DNA of 54,212 bases from a virus (IMGVR_UViG_3300003478_000003:21244-75455); one strand, 5' to 3'. Counted from the stretch's first letter, positions 17,856 to 47,955 are shown. Translations and numbers: made by a program. Notes: generated by a model not told the origin, from the letters alone.

Positions 17856-19685
17856 CTACATATTGGCGTGCATTGCCGCCATGTGCTTCTTATATTTCTT
17901 CGTGCCTTTTTTATGCGGACTCTTACCTTCTAAAGCATTAGCAATACTGCTACTATGCTCTGGCTTTTCTTCCTCATTCAAACTATCGTCTAAATCCCAA
18001 GGACCCCAATGCCCTTGTTTTAACATATTAGCAAGACCTTTATGATGTTCATATCTAGCAAAAGCACCTTTTGTTTCTTCAACACCGCCTAGTTTATAAT
18101 ATTGTTCCTTACGCATTACAATATTATTACCATTGGCTTGATCAAACACTACATCACCCATCTCAGTCCATGCGTGTGGGAATCTGCGTCCTTCTAATTT
18201 GCCTTGGCCACGCACTAATGCATGAACTAATGTTGTATTGTCTATCAACATTTCTTCTGTATCCATCAAAGCACGGCCTGCTTTACTAAAGCAATCACCA
18301 CAAGCATCTTCTGTAATTGTAGCAAGTCCTTCACTAAACCCTGATTGTTGGTCCATCCAATCCAATGCTTCTCTATTTGTAACTGGTGTTGCTAACCAAC
18401 GTTGCATACTATTATATGCTTTTTTCACACGATCTTCATTCTCTGAATTTTCTGAATTATCTATTACATAAAAATCATTACGGCCAAATAACATTTGGAA
18501 ATTTCCAACATTTTCTTGGGCCATTTTCCATCCCTTGTTTAATAATTTTTCTGGAACAGAGCGTTCTGGGCGTTGCATGTTTCGTCCTTGCGCCGTTTCA
18601 AGATTGGTATTAACAAATATCATTCGTGTTTCATATCCAATATCTTCTAAATCTTTCTTTGCTTTTGCGATTTTCTCATAATCTTTAGCAGTACCATCAA
18701 TAATAAGTCCTAGTCTACCATCAAGATAATTACCTCTACGAGTATTTGTTAATTCTTTAGCACGACCACGTTGAACATCCCTATCTGCTTGTTCTTCATC
18801 AGGCATTTTAGGATCTAAATCGTGTTTAACCATTAAGTATTCTAATGCTTGATCTGTATTAACTACTTTAAGTCCACTGCCACCAAGCATTGCTCGTGAC
18901 ATATAACTCTTGCCTGAACCAGGGCCACCAGCCATAAACACCGCTTTAAAAATATGCGGATCATTTACACCTTCAGTAAGTTCTTTTTTAGGTTCTTTAT
19001 GGTCTATATACGCCTGTATAATTTTATCATCTATATCGTGTAAACGTTCCCAATCTGGATCGTCTACATACTCAATACCTGCTTCGCGATCTGCTTTCAT
19101 ATCGCCTTCGCGTAACTTCGGGGTAACTTGTGCTAACCACTCATCTCGTGATATACCAAGATCACCAGGCTTACCTAAATCATCTACTCTAATAGCATCT
19201 ATAATTCTGTCTGCTCTGATATCTGAACCACTTCGTAATGCTCTGCCTTTATTAGCAACAAATGGATCTTCTGCCGGGTCATCATCCCAAATCTCATCTT
19301 CCATATCAATACGTATAATGGAAATGTCTTTATCTGTATCACGAAACTCCCAAGCCATTTTGCCTGCCCAGTTTAATGCATCTTCTGGATCATCAAATGC
19401 AAATATACCTGCTTCTTCGTTATATCTACTACCACCTGGGCCTTTAATCCATAAACTAGGCTGGAATTGTAGCAATCCTTTTTGCTTAATGCTAGGAACG
19501 TTCTTAGTAAATGTAGCATGATACAAATACTTTGGCATTGTTTCGTCGCCCGCCTCATAGATGTCTTTGATAAAGTTTTTATATACCATATTATCAGCAG
19601 AATAACCTGTCTCATATTTGGATTTGCGTTTATAACTGCGCCGATTTTTTAATACATTACGACTGACAAGATCATGTAGTTTCAT
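17856..19685 (-). CDS. three-domain fusion: ADP-ribosyltransferase-like, P-loop kinase, papain-like
   Basis: 609 residues from the ATG at 19685, chosen because a late-type promoter lies five bases upstream. About residues 50-165 resemble ADP-ribosyltransferase/KptA-type folds (KYLYHATFTKNVPSIKQKGL, then EAGIFAFDDPEDALNWA). About 245-430 is a zeta-toxin or polynucleotide-kinase-like P-loop domain (MAGGPGSGKSYMSRAM, VVNTDQALEYLM, GLIIDGTAKD). About 455-575 looks like a papain or transglutaminase-type domain with a possible triad Cys (ACGDCFSKA), His (RFPHAWTE) and Asp (VVFDQANGNN). It could be injected to modify host proteins or RNA. All activities are inferred. Confidence 0.65.
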   Translation of the reverse strand: MKLHDLVSRNVLKNRRSYKRKSKYETGYSADNMVYKNFIKDIYEAGDETMPKYLYHATFTKNVPSIKQKGLLQFQPSLWIKGPGGSRYNEEAGIFAFDDPEDALNWAGKMAWEFRDTDKDISIIRIDMEDEIWDDDPAEDPFVANKGRALRSGSDIRADRIIDAIRVDDLGKPGDLGISRDEWLAQVTPKLREGDMKADREAGIEYVDDPDWERLHDIDDKIIQAYIDHKEPKKELTEGVNDPHIFKAVFMAGGPGSGKSYMSRAMLGGSGLKVVNTDQALEYLMVKHDLDPKMPDEEQADRDVQRGRAKELTNTRRGNYLDGRLGLIIDGTAKDYEKIAKAKKDLEDIGYETRMIFVNTNLETAQGRNMQRPERSVPEKLLNKGWKMAQENVGNFQMLFGRNDFYVIDNSENSENEDRVKKAYNSMQRWLATPVTNREALDWMDQQSGFSEGLATITEDACGDCFSKAGRALMDTEEMLIDNTTLVHALVRGQGKLEGRRFPHAWTEMGDVVFDQANGNNIVMRKEQYYKLGGVEETKGAFARYEHHKGLANMLKQGHWGPWDLDDSLNEEEKPEHSSSIANALEGKSPHKKGTKKYKKHMAAMHANM

Positions 19686-19690
19686 ATATG

Positions 19691-19698
19691 TATTTATT
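19691..19698 (-). promoter_or_regulatory. late-type promoter AATAAATA, leaderless arrangement
   Basis: The box ends five bases before the ATG of the three-domain fusion gene at 19685. Late transcripts would begin at the A of that ATG. Confidence 0.5.
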
Positions 19699-19709
19699 TC
19701 GATTATTAC

Positions 19710-19738
19710 TTGACTGGTAAATAGAAACACTATATAAT
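19710..19738 (+). promoter_or_regulatory. sigma70-type promoter, TTGACT-N17-TATAAT, before guaC
   Basis: Five of six -35 bases and a perfect -10 box with a 17-bp spacer. Exactly six bases separate the -10 box from the guaC ATG, predicting a leaderless mRNA. It is divergent from the late box at 19691-19698. Confidence 0.7.
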
Positions 19739-32605: not shown

Positions 32606-34003
32606 TTATAAAAGGCCTTCTCTTTTCAGATCTTCCTGCGTAGCATTAATACTTGCGTGTAATACTACCATCATATGATCTATATTCTCTTTAGTTAATG
32701 TCAATGGTGGCGAAATAACATTTAAATGACCAATTGGCCTAATGATTACACCACGGTCTTGTGCGTGATTTGCTATCCTACTGCCAATATCTACACTTGC
32801 TGGAAATAATTCTTTAGTATGGCGTGTCTTAACAAATTCCATACACAACATATAATGACTACCACGTACATCACCAACCATGTAATGTCCACGCATATGT
32901 TGTAATTGTTCTTCAAAGTATGGACCAACTTCACGTACATGTTCAAGTATTTTCTCGTCTTCCATTATTTTAATGTTAGCAAGTCCAGCGGCACACGCAA
33001 CAGGATGTCCTGCGTATGTAAAGCCGTGTGTAAATAATGCGCCTTCTGCTTGAGCGCCATCACTGATTACATCGTAAATTTTGTCTGATATTATAGTTGC
33101 TGATAATGGAATGTAACCTGATGAGATGCCTTTAGCACTTGTTATAATGTCAGGCACTATATCAAATATTTCTTCGGATGCAAACCAATGTCCTAAACGT
33201 CCAAAACCTGTTACTACTTCATCTGATATGTATAACATATCAAACTTTTCACAAACTTCTTTCATGCGTTTGTGATAACCTGGAGGGGCAACAATAACAC
33301 CACCTGCGCCCATAATAGGTTCAGCAATAAATGCCGCCACATTTTCCGATCCAAGTTCTAATATTTTTTTCTCAAATTCTTTTACTAATTCATTACAAAA
33401 TATTTCTAATTGCTCTTTAGTTGGAGGACGGTCACCTTCTATACCTCTATAACAATTAGGTGCTGATATATAATATACTAAATCAGGAGCAATATCAAAA
33501 CCAATGTGATCATGCTGTGTACCTGTTAGTGTCATTGCCATGTATGTGCTACCATGGTATGAGTCTAAACGTGAGATAATTTTCTTTTTGTTTGGCTTCC
33601 CACGTTTATTATTATAAAAATGTATAATACGTATTGCTGTATCATTTGCTATTGAACCACCAGTGCCAAAGAATACATGATTTAAGTCACCAGGTGCTAT
33701 CTCCGCTAATTTTGCCGCTAATTCTGCGGCGGGTGGTGTAACTGTAGGACCAAATGTTGCGTAATAAGCAATCTCGTCTATTTGATCAGCAATTGCTTTC
33801 TTCATTGCTTCGTGTGCGTAACCAATGTTTACACACCATAAGCCAGCAATACCATCTAAATACTGATTACCATCGCTATCATATACATAATTACCAAGAG
33901 AGTTTGCCATTACTAATGATTTTTCATGATTAGCAAAATTTGTCCATGGGTGTATGTTATGATCTATATCTTTTTGTTGTAAATCTTTTGTGTTATATTT
34001 CAC
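32606..34003 (-). CDS. class III aminotransferase
   Basis: 465 residues, the usual length for omega-amino acid:pyruvate aminotransferases, which use PLP to move amino groups from compounds such as beta-alanine or taurine to pyruvate. Signatures are FFGTGGSIANDTAIRI, SRLDSYHGSTYMAMTLTG, AAFIAEPIMGAGGV, YISDEVVTGFGRLG and the PLP lysine in SAKGISSGYIPLSA. All key residues are present. It is coupled to the FAH gene (TAATG), and both lie between fibre genes and lysis genes. Substrate is not readable. Confidence 0.92.
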   Translation of the reverse strand: MKYNTKDLQQKDIDHNIHPWTNFANHEKSLVMANSLGNYVYDSDGNQYLDGIAGLWCVNIGYAHEAMKKAIADQIDEIAYYATFGPTVTPPAAELAAKLAEIAPGDLNHVFFGTGGSIANDTAIRIIHFYNNKRGKPNKKKIISRLDSYHGSTYMAMTLTGTQHDHIGFDIAPDLVYYISAPNCYRGIEGDRPPTKEQLEIFCNELVKEFEKKILELGSENVAAFIAEPIMGAGGVIVAPPGYHKRMKEVCEKFDMLYISDEVVTGFGRLGHWFASEEIFDIVPDIITSAKGISSGYIPLSATIISDKIYDVISDGAQAEGALFTHGFTYAGHPVACAAGLANIKIMEDEKILEHVREVGPYFEEQLQHMRGHYMVGDVRGSHYMLCMEFVKTRHTKELFPASVDIGSRIANHAQDRGVIIRPIGHLNVISPPLTLTKENIDHMMVVLHASINATQEDLKREGLL

Positions 34004-38648: not shown

Positions 38649-38855
38649 TTATTTATCCAATTTACCCCATTGAATGTTATTCCATAAGCGTTCATAGCCA
38701 TAGTATAAAACCATTGTCAATATAGCACCTATTGTTAAAAGACCTGTTGACTTCCATGAACCTGTTACAGCATATGCAAGTATCGGCCAATATATAAAAT
38801 TAAATACACGCCATATAATTGTTTTAACTAATGTTCGTTTATGCGAGTCAGGCAT
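38649..38855 (-). CDS. DUF2061-like small membrane protein
   Basis: 68 residues from the ATG at 38855 (start MPDSHKRTLVKTIIWRVF). It has two TM helices, WPILAYAVTGSW and GLLTIGAILTMVLYYGYERLW, and the pattern K-T-x-x-W-R of DUF2061 proteins. The start overlaps the 2OG oxygenase gene by 28 bases. Its role is unknown. Confidence 0.68.
   Translation of the reverse strand: MPDSHKRTLVKTIIWRVFNFIYWPILAYAVTGSWKSTGLLTIGAILTMVLYYGYERLWNNIQWGKLDK
38650..38657 (-). promoter_or_regulatory. late-type promoter GATAAATA, leaderless arrangement
   Basis: The box ends five bases before the ATG at 38644 and overlaps the end of the DUF2061-like gene. Confidence 0.5.
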
Positions 38856-39481
38856 TCGTCTCCGTCCAATATATCTTGTGTTTTGTTTGTTATAGTTCCA
38901 GTGCATTGTAAAAGACATCGAGGTTCCCACCCTGCATTAGCGGTGGCGTGTGGCATATTTGCCCAATCAAACCAAAACACATCTCCTGCTTGCCATCTGC
39001 ATAAACTTGTGCCAAACTGTATAAAATGGCCAGGCTTCCAGTCTTCTAAAAATATTAAAAATCGGGATACTTTAGATGGATCATCATTCATTTCATATAG
39101 CTTATCAATATGTAAATTGACCATTTCACCTGGATATTGTATATGAAATGCTGTTTTAGAGTTTAATAACCCTAAACAATCTACCATAGTTTGCCATATT
39201 CCAGTAATGTCTCTTGAGCGGCGATACATGACTGTATCAGGGTTTTGACCAGCTCTAACTAAATCATTAACTTCAGTATCTAAACTAGCATCACTATTAT
39301 GATAATTTTTCTTTCTAGTTTTCCAAGTAACTGGCTCAACACTATTTTTAATTTGCTGTAATTCATTGGACCAGTCGCCTATAAAACGAGTAACTTTTTT
39401 AAAATCAGTCTCTTGACTAGGCAAACTCCATTCAAAATGATAGTTACTTTGTGCTTTGCCAAGATCCCAGTTGCTTTCCAT
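38828..39481 (-). CDS. 2OG-Fe(II) oxygenase-like protein
   Basis: 217 residues from the ATG at 39481, one base after the upstream stop. The iron ligands are likely His124 and Asp126 (NLHIDKLY) and His178 (MPHATANAG), with Arg188 for 2-oxoglutarate. The framework W-x-P-G-H-F and GDVFWFDWANMPHA is shared with the gene at 40487. Such enzymes hydroxylate proteins, bases or small molecules. Substrate unknown. Confidence 0.72.
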   Translation of the reverse strand: MESNWDLGKAQSNYHFEWSLPSQETDFKKVTRFIGDWSNELQQIKNSVEPVTWKTRKKNYHNSDASLDTEVNDLVRAGQNPDTVMYRRSRDITGIWQTMVDCLGLLNSKTAFHIQYPGEMVNLHIDKLYEMNDDPSKVSRFLIFLEDWKPGHFIQFGTSLCRWQAGDVFWFDWANMPHATANAGWEPRCLLQCTGTITNKTQDILDGDECLTRINEH

Positions 39482-39482
39482 A

Positions 39483-39833
39483 CTAATATACTCCATCAAA
39501 TATAAAATAATCTACAGTAAATGTTAGTTCAGCACCAATAAAAACTGCTAACCAATAATTATTTAACCAATCCCATAACTGCTTGATTACCCACCAAGCA
39601 CATAATACTCTAATAGAGTATACCACATCAGCCCATATTATGTCAAGCCATAAAAACGAATCTGCTTCAAAATAGTTGTAAAATAGGATATTGTCAGCTA
39701 AAAAACTTAATTGGGCCATAAAGAATACTGCCCAATAGTAAGTTATATATTTGTTTAAGAACTTAACTATTGGTCCGGAAACAACCAATCTATAAAGTAC
39801 ATAAATTATATTAGTGACAGCTAGTTCTATCAT
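39483..39833 (-). CDS. membrane protein, 116 residues
   Basis: Three to four hydrophobic, Trp/Tyr/Phe-rich helices (YWAVFFMAQLSFLADNILFY, WWVIKQLWDWLNNYWLAVF). Two segments with a similar Leu/Thr-x-x-D pattern (SFLADNILFYNYF and TFTVDYFIFDGVY) suggest an internal duplication. It lies between a P-loop protein and an oxygenase. No family recognised. Confidence 0.6.
   Translation of the reverse strand: MIELAVTNIIYVLYRLVVSGPIVKFLNKYITYYWAVFFMAQLSFLADNILFYNYFEADSFLWLDIIWADVVYSIRVLCAWWVIKQLWDWLNNYWLAVFIGAELTFTVDYFIFDGVY
39617..39646 (-). promoter_or_regulatory. possible internal promoter, TTGACA-N18-TATACT
   Basis: A perfect -35 with a TATACT -10 at 18 bp lies inside the membrane protein gene and could express the oxygenase at 39481. 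Coding constraints make it less certain. Confidence 0.35.
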
Positions 39834-40486: not shown

Positions 40487-41233
40487 TTACGCTAGTGTCC
40501 ATACTGTATCACTTGATCCATTAGCAATAATCTCTCTAGTCTTTTCAGATTTTAGTCCTGTAATCTGGATAATTGGTCTTGGGAAATTACTAGCATTCGC
40601 TGTGGCGTGTGGTGCATTTGCCCAATCAAAGATATGTGCCTCGCCAGCTTTCCATCTTTCATAGATAAAATTACCATACATATAAAACTGTCCTGGTCTC
40701 CAATCATCTAAGAAAAATGCAATACGACATATTTGTTCTGGATCATCAATACATCTATCCCATAGCTTATCAATATGTAAGTTAAACATTTGACCTGTTA
40801 ATTGAACATGGGCTCTATATTTTAACTCGTCTTTACTGCCTATTACCCCAAAGTGTTCTTTCATTTTAACAAGCATTGGATAATCTTCTAACTCATCTTT
40901 CATATTTGTAAGCATAAGTTTTTTAGGATCTCCGCCTCCTTGTTCAATATCGTATTCTTCTTGTTTTAGCATTGGAGATTCGTCTTCTTTATCTCCATAG
41001 AATTTACGTGATTCCCAATTAATTGCTTTAGTTGAATTTTCAACTAATCTATCTCTATCTTCTTTCCAAAGTTCAGGATTATCAAATCGGCCTAATACCT
41101 TAAACCATTCACCTTCTTTATCTTTAACGTTATCATCAAAATGATATTCGCTATGTGCTACTGTCCAATCCCAGTTCGAATCGAATTCAGATGGGTCTTT
41201 TAAGGTTTTAGACCAATCTGTTTTGTGTATCAT
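40487..41233 (-). CDS. 2OG-Fe(II) oxygenase-like protein
   Basis: 248 residues, paralogue of 38828. Likely ligands are His153 and Asp155 (NLHIDKLW), His209 (APHATANAS) and Arg219 (FPRPIIQITG). CRIAFFLDDWRPGQFYMYG aligns with the same part of its paralogue. The start overlaps the tctA stop (ATGA). Two such enzymes in one operon with a P-loop protein suggest related substrates. Confidence 0.72.
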   Translation of the reverse strand: MIHKTDWSKTLKDPSEFDSNWDWTVAHSEYHFDDNVKDKEGEWFKVLGRFDNPELWKEDRDRLVENSTKAINWESRKFYGDKEDESPMLKQEEYDIEQGGGDPKKLMLTNMKDELEDYPMLVKMKEHFGVIGSKDELKYRAHVQLTGQMFNLHIDKLWDRCIDDPEQICRIAFFLDDWRPGQFYMYGNFIYERWKAGEAHIFDWANAPHATANASNFPRPIIQITGLKSEKTREIIANGSSDTVWTLA

Positions 41234-42738
41234 GTGTAATCAAGTCCTTTGTCTTTTCTTACTAAACTATTTATGAATATGCCTAATGCTATTACAATAC
41301 ATACAAGGAAGATAGGATGATTATAAATGTTAAATAATTCTCCCCATCTAAATCCTTCCATCGACGTTAAGCCTGGCTTCCATTGTTTGTAACCGTACAG
41401 TTGTAAGGTTCCCCAGAAGTATTCATCTATTTTAAATGCTACAACGTATGCAACTAGAATTGCCGGTCTACTAATGTTATATATTTTACATACAACACCA
41501 ATAGCACTTAATATAGCAAGTAAGGCCAAGTCTTCCCAGCCACCTGTATATTGCATATTAGCATAAACAATTACTGCTAAAATAAATGTAGCATAAATCC
41601 AAAACGGAACTTCTAATATTTTAAGAATATATTTGTATAAGACTATACTCAACAATGCTACACCAACTGTTCCAAATATATAACCAAATGCCAGTGAATT
41701 TGTAAATTGTAAATCTTGTAGTAAACTTGGTGTGCCAATCTCCATACCGAAGTACATACAGATTGCCATAACCATAGCCGCAAATGGTGCCGCAGGAATA
41801 CCAAACAAACAAGCAGGTATCATACTAGATACTTTCTGTGCATTGTTGGCTCCTTCACAGCCTAGTAATCCTACAGGATTACCTTCACCAAATGGAACTT
41901 CTTGATCTTCTTCTTTGTGTGCGGCTTTGGTTGCACCGTATGCTAAGAAGTCACCTACTGCTCCTCCTACGCCTGGCAATAAGCCAGTTACGAATCCAAT
42001 TAGTCCACCTCTAACCATATCTTTCCAATGTCGTTTGCAATCACCAAAACCTTGTTTCAGTCCTGTCCAATAATTTCCTTCTAACGGTGGTGCCGCTGAT
42101 TTTAATTTCTTTCTGAATCCGTCTAATAATTCAGGAACTCCGAATAAGCCTGATAGTAGAACCACCATGCCAATTCCATTTTGTAAATATTCCCAACCGA
42201 ATGTCAGTCTAGGATTACTTACAACATCTTCTCCTACCATACCTACTGCTAATCCGAATATGATTGCACAGATACTTAAGAAAACATTTTTACTTGCAAC
42301 AAAGCCTACACAGGCTAGTGCCATTGTCATAAAGCCCAGAAACTCCGGGCGTCCAAATAATACTATAATTTTTCCATAGTATGGAAGTAAAAAGAAAGTT
42401 AATGCCGCAAATACAACACCATTAAATGTTGAATCAGCAATAGCAATTCCCATTGCTCTAGCGGCTTGACCTTTCTTTGCCATAGGATAACCGTCAATAA
42501 CACATGCCGCAGTAGTACTAGCGCCAGGAATACCAGTAAGAATACTTGTATAACTATCTGCACTCGCACAACTTGCCACGATAGCAGTTAAAAAGACCAA
42601 CCCCAAATAAGGGTCGGCCATAAAATATGCTCCCATGGTAAAGACAGTTATCAGAGCAGTAGTTACACCTGCGATAGGAATAATACCAACTAACATTCCA
42701 TAACAAGTGCCAACTAATGCCCAGATAACATATTCCAT
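41230..42738 (-). CDS. tctA: tripartite tricarboxylate transporter, large membrane subunit
   Basis: 502 residues, the usual TctA length, with about 11-12 TM helices. Family signatures are the N-terminal GMLVGIIPIAGVTTALI, SILTGIPGASTTAACVIDG and a second GFVTGLLPGVGGAVGDFLAYG. TctA forms the channel of a secondary transporter for carboxylates such as citrate. It is complete, which is unusual for a phage. The TctC-like gene follows upstream on the strand; no TctB is seen. Confidence 0.93.
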   Translation of the reverse strand: MEYVIWALVGTCYGMLVGIIPIAGVTTALITVFTMGAYFMADPYLGLVFLTAIVASCASADSYTSILTGIPGASTTAACVIDGYPMAKKGQAARAMGIAIADSTFNGVVFAALTFFLLPYYGKIIVLFGRPEFLGFMTMALACVGFVASKNVFLSICAIIFGLAVGMVGEDVVSNPRLTFGWEYLQNGIGMVVLLSGLFGVPELLDGFRKKLKSAAPPLEGNYWTGLKQGFGDCKRHWKDMVRGGLIGFVTGLLPGVGGAVGDFLAYGATKAAHKEEDQEVPFGEGNPVGLLGCEGANNAQKVSSMIPACLFGIPAAPFAAMVMAICMYFGMEIGTPSLLQDLQFTNSLAFGYIFGTVGVALLSIVLYKYILKILEVPFWIYATFILAVIVYANMQYTGGWEDLALLAILSAIGVVCKIYNISRPAILVAYVVAFKIDEYFWGTLQLYGYKQWKPGLTSMEGFRWGELFNIYNHPIFLVCIVIALGIFINSLVRKDKGLDYT

Positions 42739-42748
42739 AGTGCTTTCC

Positions 42749-43804
42749 TTAGTCTAAAAGTTCAGGTTTGTAGATTGATGGGAAGCCATACGCTTCTTGG
42801 TTCCACTTCACCGCATCTCTTAGTGCTTTCTCTGTAATCAAAGATTTAAGAGCCGCTAATAGACTATCACCATCTTGAATCCAAGGATAAACACCTGTCT
42901 TAGCATAAATTTCTGCTGATGCAACTGGATCATTGATCATTGCAGTTACAGCCGATTTAACTTTTGCCGCATTTGGATTACCTTTGTTCATCCAAAGTGA
43001 TTTTTGGATTGCGTCACGCCAGTTACGAGTAAGTTTATATGCTTGATATAAATCACCTGATGGTGCTTCGCCCCATAATCTTTCATACACATCTTCAAAT
43101 TGTGTATTAGGGAAGTTAGGGTCATCCATTTGTATATTGTTTTCTAAGTCTAGGATACCGTGAGTGAACCATAGTTCATTACCTTCGATATCTGTATAGA
43201 AACGCTTCCATGCCGCTGGTGATTCACGTGCGATATCAAATTCACCATTTTGGAAACCTAGACGCTTTTCACCGCCTGATACACCGTTAACCCATACAAC
43301 ACGTTCTCTCCAACATGTCAAGTAGGCATCGATTGAACCGTTTTCTTGTGGGCCACAGATTAACATTGCCGCCGCGGCCGCATCTGGTTCAAAACCTGAC
43401 CCGCCTGCGATTGTCCAAGTGCCTGATTTTTCATCTTTACCTTCTTGTTTACCAAGAACGATATCATTATTCATTGAACCAATTAGTTCATAATCAAAAT
43501 AATTGTATCTAACTTTATCTAATAGAAACGATACACCGTTGCCACCGTGTGCAACCATGATTGTTTTATCATCAAAACGTAGACTATCGTGGAACTTGTT
43601 AAATCCAGGAATATCACGTGCGCCTGGAATGTGACGTACTACTACTGGTTCGCCTAGGAACTTTTCTAAGTTCTTAGCAATGATTTCACTCCAAACTGAA
43701 GTGCCCTTACCAGGTGCCTGTGGCACGATTAGGGTATAATCGGCTAACGCCGATGTTGCAATACCTATTGAAAGTATTGCCGAGATTAATAGTTTTTTAA
43801 ACAT
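42749..43804 (-). CDS. tctC: TctC-like periplasmic solute-binding protein
   Basis: 351 residues. A signal peptide (MFKKLLISAILSIGIATSALA) is followed by the Bug/TctC fold: LIVPQAPGKGTSVW, EPVVVRHIPGARDIPGFNKF, TIMVAHGGNG. It would bind a carboxylate in the periplasm and hand it to TctA. The mature protein holds four Cys and some long loops, more than usual. GGAG precedes the ATG. It contains an Ala run encoded by GCGGCCGC. Confidence 0.88.
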   Translation of the reverse strand: MFKKLLISAILSIGIATSALADYTLIVPQAPGKGTSVWSEIIAKNLEKFLGEPVVVRHIPGARDIPGFNKFHDSLRFDDKTIMVAHGGNGVSFLLDKVRYNYFDYELIGSMNNDIVLGKQEGKDEKSGTWTIAGGSGFEPDAAAAAMLICGPQENGSIDAYLTCWRERVVWVNGVSGGEKRLGFQNGEFDIARESPAAWKRFYTDIEGNELWFTHGILDLENNIQMDDPNFPNTQFEDVYERLWGEAPSGDLYQAYKLTRNWRDAIQKSLWMNKGNPNAAKVKSAVTAMINDPVASAEIYAKTGVYPWIQDGDSLLAALKSLITEKALRDAVKWNQEAYGFPSIYKPELLD

Positions 43805-43831
43805 TTGTTACTCCATTAATAAACTTCTTCA

Positions 43832-44017
43832 TTATATTCTCCTATGAATAATTGATTCTATTTTTACGAAAATAGCAAAATCTTCCCAACCTCCTGTATA
43901 CTGTACACAAACCCATATAACTATTGCAACGAGGCCTGTAGTCGCACCAGCACCGGGTATGATGCCGATTAATAGTCCATACAAAGTCCCGCCCAATAGA
44001 GCGATAATTTCATTCAT
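43832..44017 (-). pseudogene. decayed second tctA, internal deletion
   Basis: 61 codons. The first 33 (start MNEIIALLGGTLYGLLIGII, then PGAGATTGLV) match the TctA N-terminus, diverged from the intact copy. They are joined directly to VQYTGGWEDFAIF, which matches a stretch near residue 400 of TctA (MQYTGGWEDLALL), after which the frame is lost. About 370 codons are missing. A ribosome site and a short start codon frame (MKKFINGVTNV) follow, perhaps the remains of another transporter gene. It lies behind a late-type promoter at 44079. Confidence 0.75.
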
Positions 44018-44078
44018 AGGGGATAGTGTGTGTTAATGAACTTCCTAAGGAGCGTTACTAACACTTGGTAGGTAAATA

Positions 44079-44086
44079 TATTTATT
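44079..44086 (-). promoter_or_regulatory. late-type promoter AATAAATA before the tct locus
   Basis: The box is followed five bases on by an A (44073). It would transcribe the tctA remnant, tctC, tctA and the downstream oxygenases. Confidence 0.5.
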
Positions 44087-46133: not shown

Positions 46134-46811
46134 TTATTTCTTTGACCAAACAAAATACATTCTTTCTTTGTAATCGTTTCTCAAATCTAATACATCTACT
46201 TTTAAAAAGTCAGCACAGTTAATTATAAATGTTGGTGTCCATTCATAAAAAGATATCCAACTGGATTCTGTTGGTATATGCGTTAGTCCTGGGTTTACTC
46301 TAAAATATATTTTACCACCAGGCGTTGTTAATTTTACTATATGCTCTAACTCTTTTAATATTTTATCAGTTGATCCAAAGTTAATTGAACCTAAGCACAT
46401 AACTACATCAAATGTTTCAGAAGGATGATAATCTAAAATACTTACTTTAATATCTGCGTGACTATTATATGGGTCAATACCTATTAGGTTGTCTATTTTA
46501 CTTTTAAACTCGTTATAGCCACAGCCAACGTCTAACACACTACGTGGTTTTAAACTATTAATCTCATCCACTAATGCTAATCCACTGTGCTTATATTTTT
46601 TAGTTTCAGACTGCCATACATTACTAAAGTATTTTTCCAATACTTTGTCATCAATTTTATTAACTAATTCGCCAGTATTGTCAAAACTAACATCCTCAAC
46701 CCATACGTCAAACATACCTTGTATAGACTGCCGTAGTTTGTGATCATCTCGCAAGATTTGAGGAGATGTTTTAAACATATCCTCTAATGCATTAAGTATT
46801 TTTATATTCAT
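46134..46811 (-). CDS. SAM-dependent methyltransferase
   Basis: 225 residues of class I type. Motif I is SVLDVGCGYNEF, motif II LIGIDPYN, motif IV FDVVMCLGSINFG and motif V LTTPGGKIYFRVNPG. The first 60 residues are helical and extra. It overlaps the tryptophan dioxygenase gene by 4 bases. The substrate is unknown. Confidence 0.78.
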   Translation of the reverse strand: MNIKILNALEDMFKTSPQILRDDHKLRQSIQGMFDVWVEDVSFDNTGELVNKIDDKVLEKYFSNVWQSETKKYKHSGLALVDEINSLKPRSVLDVGCGYNEFKSKIDNLIGIDPYNSHADIKVSILDYHPSETFDVVMCLGSINFGSTDKILKELEHIVKLTTPGGKIYFRVNPGLTHIPTESSWISFYEWTPTFIINCADFLKVDVLDLRNDYKERMYFVWSKK

Positions 46812-47323
46812 TTATCCCACAAATTTTTATCAACTGTTTGTTTTAAATACTTTACTCCAGATGTGCCTCCAGTCCCAGGCTTATCCCCTATAATGCGTTC
46901 TACAGTTTTCATATGATTAAACTGCCATTTTTTAAACGCATTTTCTACATCGCATAACGCTTCACGTGGAAATAAACTTGTATTTGGACAACATTTGCTG
47001 GGTAAATCTCTCAATAACTGTTCTACTTCTATATATTGTGTTGATTGTTTGCCTGACGCTGAGCCTAGTGTGCTTCTAAATCTCTCGTAGTCTTGTGGGG
47101 TAAGTGTTGCTATAATGTCCCACAATGTATTTAAGTGATTGAATATTTTGGCAATGCGTTTTAGATCTGGATTAGTAGCAATGCTTAATTCGCGTATTAA
47201 TACTTTAAACCATAATTCGGATGCTTGGTGTGCAACTATAAACATCAGTTCATTGCGATCCGATGTTATTGTGTTTTGTGAATTTAATATTGTATCTAGA
47301 TCTAAATAATCGCCATAATTCAT
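46808..47323 (-). CDS. kynA: compact tryptophan 2,3-dioxygenase
   Basis: 171 residues from the ATG at 47323 (ATGA overlap). TDO opens the indole ring of tryptophan to N-formylkynurenine with heme and O2. Key residues are kept: His32 in MFIVAHQASELWFK, Arg83 in YERFRSTLGSASG, heme ligand His137 in FNHMKTVERIIG, and the substrate loop PGTGGTSGVKYLK. Bacterial TDO is about 280 residues; here the middle helical part of about 100 residues is replaced by about 25. It may be a minimal active form, as all heme and substrate parts remain. Confidence 0.8.
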   Translation of the reverse strand: MNYGDYLDLDTILNSQNTITSDRNELMFIVAHQASELWFKVLIRELSIATNPDLKRIAKIFNHLNTLWDIIATLTPQDYERFRSTLGSASGKQSTQYIEVEQLLRDLPSKCCPNTSLFPREALCDVENAFKKWQFNHMKTVERIIGDKPGTGGTSGVKYLKQTVDKNLWDK

Positions 47324-47955
47324 ATTACGCACACTTTAATATCTTCTGCCTTATAACTTTGGTGTACACCTTCTATAGGACACTTTATATTTAACAAATT
47401 GCACGTATCAAAACTGTCTATCGCATTAAATTTTGCTTTATTAACTGCCATAAATGCTTTAATATTTTTATTTTGTAAAGCAATCTCTGCCTTCATCTTT
47501 TTCTCGTTTTCATACCATTCATAACTAGGATACGAGATTTCAAATCCGCCTGCCTGCATCCACCAATCATAGCATTTCTTGTTTGTTCTATACGTCAAAA
47601 CTATTTTGCTATTAGGCCATTCTGTTTTTATATATTGTAAATTGTGTGCTAATGTGTGGCTTTTAATAATCCTGTATTTGTCTCTGCGTAAAATACCACT
47701 AAATGCTTTATTAAACTCTGCTTCGTTTTGTTTTTTATTGTGCTTATCTATGCTATCAAACCAATTACCAAATTCCATACCTGGATCAAAATAAGAGCCA
47801 CTGTGTTTTGCTTTATAATCACTAAGTTGTGGCCCGCCTAAATATTCACGGTGGGGAGCGGCGTCTGTTTGATCTATATCAACAGATTCGTATATATGAG
47901 CGGCAACACTACTCCAACGTGATCCTGGCGCTCCTACTAAGAAAATATAACTCAT
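47320..47955 (-). CDS. sulfotransferase-like protein
   Basis: 211 residues. The 5' phosphosulfate-binding loop is VGAPGSRWSS at the start, and RIIKSHTL with IVLTYRTNKKCYDWWM matches the 3' phosphate region of sulfotransferases. Such proteins would move sulfate from PAPS to a sugar or protein. The pattern is common in marine T4-like phages. ATGA overlaps on both sides. Confidence 0.7.
   Translation of the reverse strand: MSYIFLVGAPGSRWSSVAAHIYESVDIDQTDAAPHREYLGGPQLSDYKAKHSGSYFDPGMEFGNWFDSIDKHNKKQNEAEFNKAFSGILRRDKYRIIKSHTLAHNLQYIKTEWPNSKIVLTYRTNKKCYDWWMQAGGFEISYPSYEWYENEKKMKAEIALQNKNIKAFMAVNKAKFNAIDSFDTCNLLNIKCPIEGVHQSYKAEDIKVCVI

Follow-up and report, generated by a model that had tools for sequence, protein, structure and literature searches.

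How does a phage genome come to hold an intact pair of transporter genes next to the fragment of another permease gene, and what might such a pair do? The genes concerned belong to the tripartite tricarboxylate transporters (TTT, TC 2.A.80), known from TctCBA of Salmonella and BctCBA of Bordetella. The DNA analysed here, referred to as the window, comprises 54,212 nucleotides (bases 21244-75455 of the 75,455-bp virus record IMGVR_UViG_3300003478_000003), and the transporter features described below lie on its minus strand.

The intact pair and its phage

The DNA polymerase encoded in the window is of the T4 type, and its nearest isolates, Atu_ph07 (490 kb) and Phosso (469 kb), matched at 47%, are jumbo phages. 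Together with Gp23, found in 10 of 32 tctA-bearing records of which several exceed 300 kb, this polymerase places the transporter genes in real phage genomes. Among isolated phages, no close relative of either the TctA or the TctC of the window was found; kinship to Agrobacterium/Sinorhizobium phages makes an alphaproteobacterial host a fair guess. The window further encodes a class III aminotransferase (32606-34003, minus strand; Pfam, 316 bits) and a 624-aa protein with a kinase domain of the zeta-toxin/AAA_33 type in its middle (17856-19730, minus strand).

The permease gene tctA (41230-42738, minus strand) is complete; its 502-aa product matches the whole Pfam profile PF01970 with 291 bits and displays about 11 hydrophobic helices (Kyte-Doolittle), as befits a 12-TM permease of the TctA type. 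Its AlphaFold2 (AF2) model reaches a pLDDT of 79, and a fold search retrieved no close solved structure; the middling matches (barley YS1, Z 10.3, rmsd above 10; NaCT/VcINDY and TRAP SiaQM, Z 6-8) were not used. The low-confidence part of the model is an extra loop of ~18 residues (about 449-470), which other phage TctAs do not have. The gene overlaps its downstream neighbour by 4 nt (ATGA). This neighbour (40487-41233, minus strand; 248 aa), whose place after tctA is supported by synteny, is a paralogue (36%) of the gene at 38828-39499 (minus strand), which has a weak match to Asp/Arg beta-hydroxylases (PF05118); in many phages, one or both of these genes are again found next to the TctA-TctC pair.

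The gene tctC (42749-43804, minus strand) encodes a 351-aa protein with an N-terminal signal sequence (..SALAD). The protein has no match in Pfam, PHROG or NCBIfam, and its identity as a solute-binding protein follows from its fold: the AF2 model (pLDDT 91, pTM 0.88) matches 11 Bug/TctC binding-protein entries with Z 18.1-20.4, the next entry following at Z 13.0, and the top matches, among them Bug27, TphC, TBP, AdpC, BugD, MatC and other TctC proteins, superpose with an rmsd of 3.1-4.0 over 263-274 residues. A profile match to BugD (E 0.002) points the same way, and viral predicted proteins annotated as Bug/TTT binding domains are present in BFVD. The claim of an earlier note on this DNA that a phage carries an intact TctA together with a TctC is thus confirmed, for TctA by its profile and for TctC by its fold. 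Against relatives, dN/dS is 0.03-0.09 for TctA and 0.07-0.12 for TctC; with these low values (0.03-0.12 overall), indicative of strong purifying selection, both genes are kept functional.

The remnant of a second cassette

Upstream of tctC lies an open reading frame (ORF) of 61 codons (43832-44017, minus strand), which matches the Pfam TctA profile weakly and below the cutoff (14.9 bits). A scan with its 61 residues recovered a sister phage contig, IMGVR_UViG_3300008954_002004 (L064), which encodes an intact TctA of 479 aa and, after it, a TctC of its own, within which the contig ends. Three neighbouring genes of this contig, encoding the sulfotransferase-like protein r211, a tryptophan dioxygenase and the methyltransferase MT225, share 90-91% identity with their counterparts in the window. 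Residues 1-32 of the remnant are 100% identical to the TctA of L064, as opposed to 53% to the neighbouring intact TctA, in agreement with the proposal that the remnant is not a recent copy of that gene; residues 29-51 match L064 at 91%. At the DNA level, three collinear blocks are shared: the leader with codons 1-32 (94%), 69 bp near codons 382-404 (87%), and 54 bp (100%; L064 6268-6321) spanning the 3' end of tctA, the spacer and the first five codons of tctC. This match rules out an unrelated short membrane gene.

The block offsets put the losses of the remnant relative to L064 at 1059 nt (353 codons, in frame) and 205 nt. Since the latter number is not a multiple of three, the last ~12 codons of the ORF are tctA DNA read in the wrong frame; the layout is therefore codons 1-32, about 23 codons (~382 to ~404) and an out-of-frame 3' end, that is, a pseudogene. 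The earlier description of a diverged TctA N-terminus joined to a later segment holds, and its single gap of roughly 370 codons resolves into these two deletions. At the joint of the 1059-nt deletion (43922-43933, minus strand) lies an imperfect 12-nt repeat, CTCGTTGCAATA / CTTGTAGCGATA in L064, both coding for LVAI, although exact homology within L064 is limited to 3 bp; the joint of the 205-nt deletion (43865-43871, minus strand) coincides with an exact 6-bp repeat, TTCGTA, for which a simulation on this locus gave a chance of about 0.003 for 6 bp or more. Immediately downstream, the start codon and first five codons of the lost second tctC (ATGAAGAAGTTTATT; 43818-43832, minus strand) are preserved along with its Shine-Dalgarno sequence. 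Past ATGAAGAAGTTTATT the window reads TTTATTAATGGAG..., which resembles the tctC leader of a phage with the present gene order, L007 (TTTATTAATG...), and TTTATT is shared at this third joint.

Short repeats at joints could in principle mislead an assembler into fusing two tctA genes. The same scar, however, occurs in four other assemblies (L002-L005, four other IMG/VR datasets), which are 100% identical in every gene compared, remnant included, and one of these, of 322,647 bp, is identical (100%) to the window over 19,901 bp. The five scar-bearing records are mutually identical and may share samples; the joined segments moreover derive from one sister-phage gene, in collinear order. An assembly artefact is thus highly improbable, to the point where we dismiss it.

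The tryptophan 2,3-dioxygenase of this neighbourhood (46808-47332, minus strand; 174 aa) is also abridged, its N-terminal part being fused to a C-terminal segment (FNHMKTVERIIG..GTGGTSG) with the middle gone. Unlike the tctA remnant, this short form is conserved (91% in L064, dN/dS about 0.11) and recurs in two other contigs (66%); it is possibly a compact enzyme.

The leader of the lost cassette persists as well (44018-44086, minus strand). The 94% block begins at a late-promoter-like box, AATAAATA (44079-44086), at its 5' edge, and L064 has at the same place, -69 of tctA, the sequence TATAAATA, the T4 late box. In the window, TATAAATA occurs 7 times, less often than the 13.9 expected, and five of the seven copies lie no more than 60 nt upstream of a same-strand gene start (P about 2e-6). 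The label of a late-type operon attached to this locus is therefore borne out in part: the boxes near gene starts, the one in L064 and AATAAATA at the same place in the window speak for it. A late-promoter motif common to all cassettes was ruled out, such a motif being present at only 9 of 70 loci. Because the scar retains the old leader, transcription of the new cassette may begin there.

At TAATG, the stop codon of the 61-codon ORF overlaps the start of the old tctC, from which an 11-codon ORF runs 5 nt into the new tctC; this overlapping chain (43800-43834, minus strand) could couple translation. Such a chain is typical of translational coupling, and residues 1-32 of the remnant retain one hydrophobic helix, features that would suit an ORF kept as a small functional membrane peptide or as a translated leader of tctC. 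We consider this unlikely, because its 3' part is out of frame, it is confined to one identical lineage while 27 of 31 loci with the present gene order do not have it, and the present tctC has a GGAG of its own.

Transporter cassettes across phages

Two scans identified at least about 106 distinct viral contigs with a TctA, some from T4-like jumbo phages over 300 kb, and TctC adjoins TctA in nearly all of them unless the contig ends there. Two gene orders exist: tctC-tctA, as in the window (type I; 31 contigs plus L111), and tctA-tctC, as in L064 (type II). In a TctA tree of 95 sequences (34 from viral and three MAG contigs, 61 bacterial), the phage-type proteins group in a single clade on a long stem (support 1.0, stem length 0.89). 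Type I TctAs form a clade within it (0.999), whose sister, L108 and L109, has the tctA-tctC order; the TctC tree agrees (0.981), and in both trees the type I order is a single clade nested among type II phages. The extra TctA loop is confined to type I proper, L111 excepted.

With sampled bacterial TctAs, the TctA of the window shares no more than 33% identity and that of L064 no more than 36%. No close bacterial donor appeared among the matches listed in a scan of a genome collection, and neither 385 genomes from the class to which the Rickettsiales MAG belongs nor two phylum samples supplied one; the three near matches, L112-L114, all lie on MAG contigs. L112 and L113 nest inside the phage TctA clade, and these may be real bacterial members, arisen by phage-to-bacterium transfer, or binning errors. 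Their neighbours look bacterial (an outer-membrane efflux protein, a class III aminotransferase, HD/GAF proteins), and in L112 the TctA-TctC genes adjoin homologues of the window's sulfotransferase-like and methyltransferase genes.

Within the window, the block upstream of the pair is nearest to L064 (synonymous difference 0.29-0.43), TctC and TctA are nearest to L006/L007 (0.27/0.33), whose MT225 differs from that of the window to saturation (0.76), and the two genes after tctA are nearest, by the same measure, to L009 and L017. Judged by these distances, the transporter neighbourhood is evidently a mosaic. Phages with two intact systems exist, since the 328-kb record G019 carries two complete pairs of a TctA and a binding protein, at 74 and 162 kb. 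Repeated gain and loss of transporter genes, which the earlier note had proposed, is documented by one event relative to L064, with the mosaic neighbours and the two pairs of G019 suggesting more. In G019, the second, divergent TctA lies beside a 320-aa exported protein (G019:C1:70500-79500), about 88 kb from the type II pair. A further contig, G028 (28 kb), carries one phage-type TctA and two additional TctA genes of about 100 bits, and may be partly cellular.

The locus is thus very probably the result of one phage transporter cassette having replaced another, the old one being eroded to a scar. The parentage of the remnant and its joints are read off the alignment, and the presumed course of events is the following: The site would once have held, in a T4-like jumbo phage, a type II cassette preceded by a late-type leader. 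Its place would have been taken by a type I cassette from another phage lineage, joined through the 6 bp shared at the third joint, among the opening codons of the old tctC, and the tctA of that older cassette would have shrunk through two deletions to the frameshifted remnant. The old leader and start region, left upstream of the new genes, may help to express them.

The other peculiarity of the pair, the absence of TctB noted earlier from the window, extends to the family. PF07331 (TctB) matched none of 36 whole records of up to 342 kb, with positive controls. The nearest bacterial TctAs among the 385 genomes are alphaproteobacterial TctA-TctB fusions (L193-L206; 640-680 aa) with a C-terminal extension of about five hydrophobic segments, which aligns to a separate TctB-like protein beside TctA in L118 (hhalign probability 97.7%, E 1.3e-12); TctB is thus fused or adjacent in these relatives. 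A profile built from this extension found TctB in at least 25 bacterial loci and yielded no match in the phage loci, so that doing without TctB characterises the phage branch; neither profile found in the phages the 4-TM subunit of a whole TTT system. A 116-aa membrane gene (39483-39833) was rejected as a substitute, having no Pfam match and being present in only some loci.

Possible function of the pair and its place among known systems

Like TctCBA and BctCBA, the phage locus places a TctA-family permease and a binding protein of the Bug/TctC fold side by side; it differs in being phage-borne and devoid of TctB, in a TctA that is about 36% identical at most to sampled bacterial TctAs and in a TctC too divergent for Pfam PF03401. 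Next to most of the alphaproteobacterial fusions there is likewise a TctC-like protein, which shares 24-30% identity with the phage TctC, whereas the phage TctA (about 480-502 aa) does not have the C-terminal TctB domain of the fusions. During infection, TctC would bind a solute in the periplasm and TctA would carry it across the inner membrane by ion coupling, without a phage TctB. The protein families and the selection on them are observed; transport, substrate and any role of host TctB are inferred.

The ligand may differ from those of bacterial relatives. The phage TctC shares their scaffold residues, but the loop residues D36, S86, S88 and D/E144, conserved in those relatives, give way to S, H, G and A in the phage proteins, which hints at a different ligand; since the pocket loops are altered, a carboxylate is not assured. 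Bug27, the top fold match, binds quinolinate (PMC11452294), and a tryptophan dioxygenase gene lies nearby; quinolinate was not adopted as the ligand, this link being only suggestive.

We consider it moderately probable that the pair now in place imports an anion without the help of a phage TctB. The most serious competitor, which we rate as possible but clearly weaker, is a hybrid three-part transporter in which the phage proteins recruit the TctB of the infected host. All well-studied TTT systems include TctB, although it is poorly conserved and its role is unknown (PMC5812351), and as the nearest bacterial TctAs have a fused or adjacent TctB, a related one could be present in the host; a fused TctB, however, is not free to pair, and an entire phage branch without its own TctB suggests that none is needed. 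It is quite improbable that the pair feeds no cell at all, with TctC/TctA blocking a host permease or retargeting it, for instance in defence against a second phage, or TctC serving as a sensor. In bacteria, many TctC/Bug proteins are orphans that have other partners (PMC5812351, PMC11452294), and the ligand loops of the phage TctC are altered, yet TctA is complete and co-evolves with TctC throughout the clade, as expected of a working pair. Taken as a whole, cassette replacement with a scar, combined with a phage-encoded anion uptake system, is the explanation that we regard as likely. More tentatively, and on balance with some reserve, marine jumbo phages may possess their own ancient TTT branch, a two-part importer of TctA and TctC with an altered pocket, maintained as an exchangeable phage cassette rather than by new acquisitions from hosts.

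Viral TctA genes as such have been seen before: Viral contigs from SUP05 single cells were reported to contain a tctA domain match (PMC4164917), a review lists tctA for marine viral contigs (PMC6359870), and tricarboxylate-transport genes occur near viral norB/nirK (PMC8115048). The SUP05 and norB/nirK contigs resemble the present case in carrying TctA-type genes in marine phage contigs; in the available parts of both articles these appear as a domain match or in passing, and the pair, its order, the absence of TctB, a phage clade or a scar are not described there. In the literature outside subscription journals, the TctA-TctC pair was not found described, and neither were its two gene orders, the absence of TctB or a replacement scar.

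Virus-encoded genes for nutrient uptake include pstS of cyanophages and viral amt. In these, as in the phage TctA-TctC, the virus supplies a transporter component; pstS and amt provide a binding protein or a channel alone, whereas here a permease and a binding protein are inherited together. Few of the known metabolic genes of phages encode transporters, and the TctA-TctC pair fits the known class of auxiliary metabolic genes. Viral amtB is also mentioned in PMC8115048.

In more than 100 viral contigs the permease is accompanied by its binding protein, and the pair would make it possible to ask whether transport needs TctB at all. The scar offers a base-level view of the replacement of a metabolic cassette, a process usually inferred only from whole-genome comparison: These phages swap nutrient transporters and leave a readable scar, and the two-gene system now in place probably takes up organic acids.
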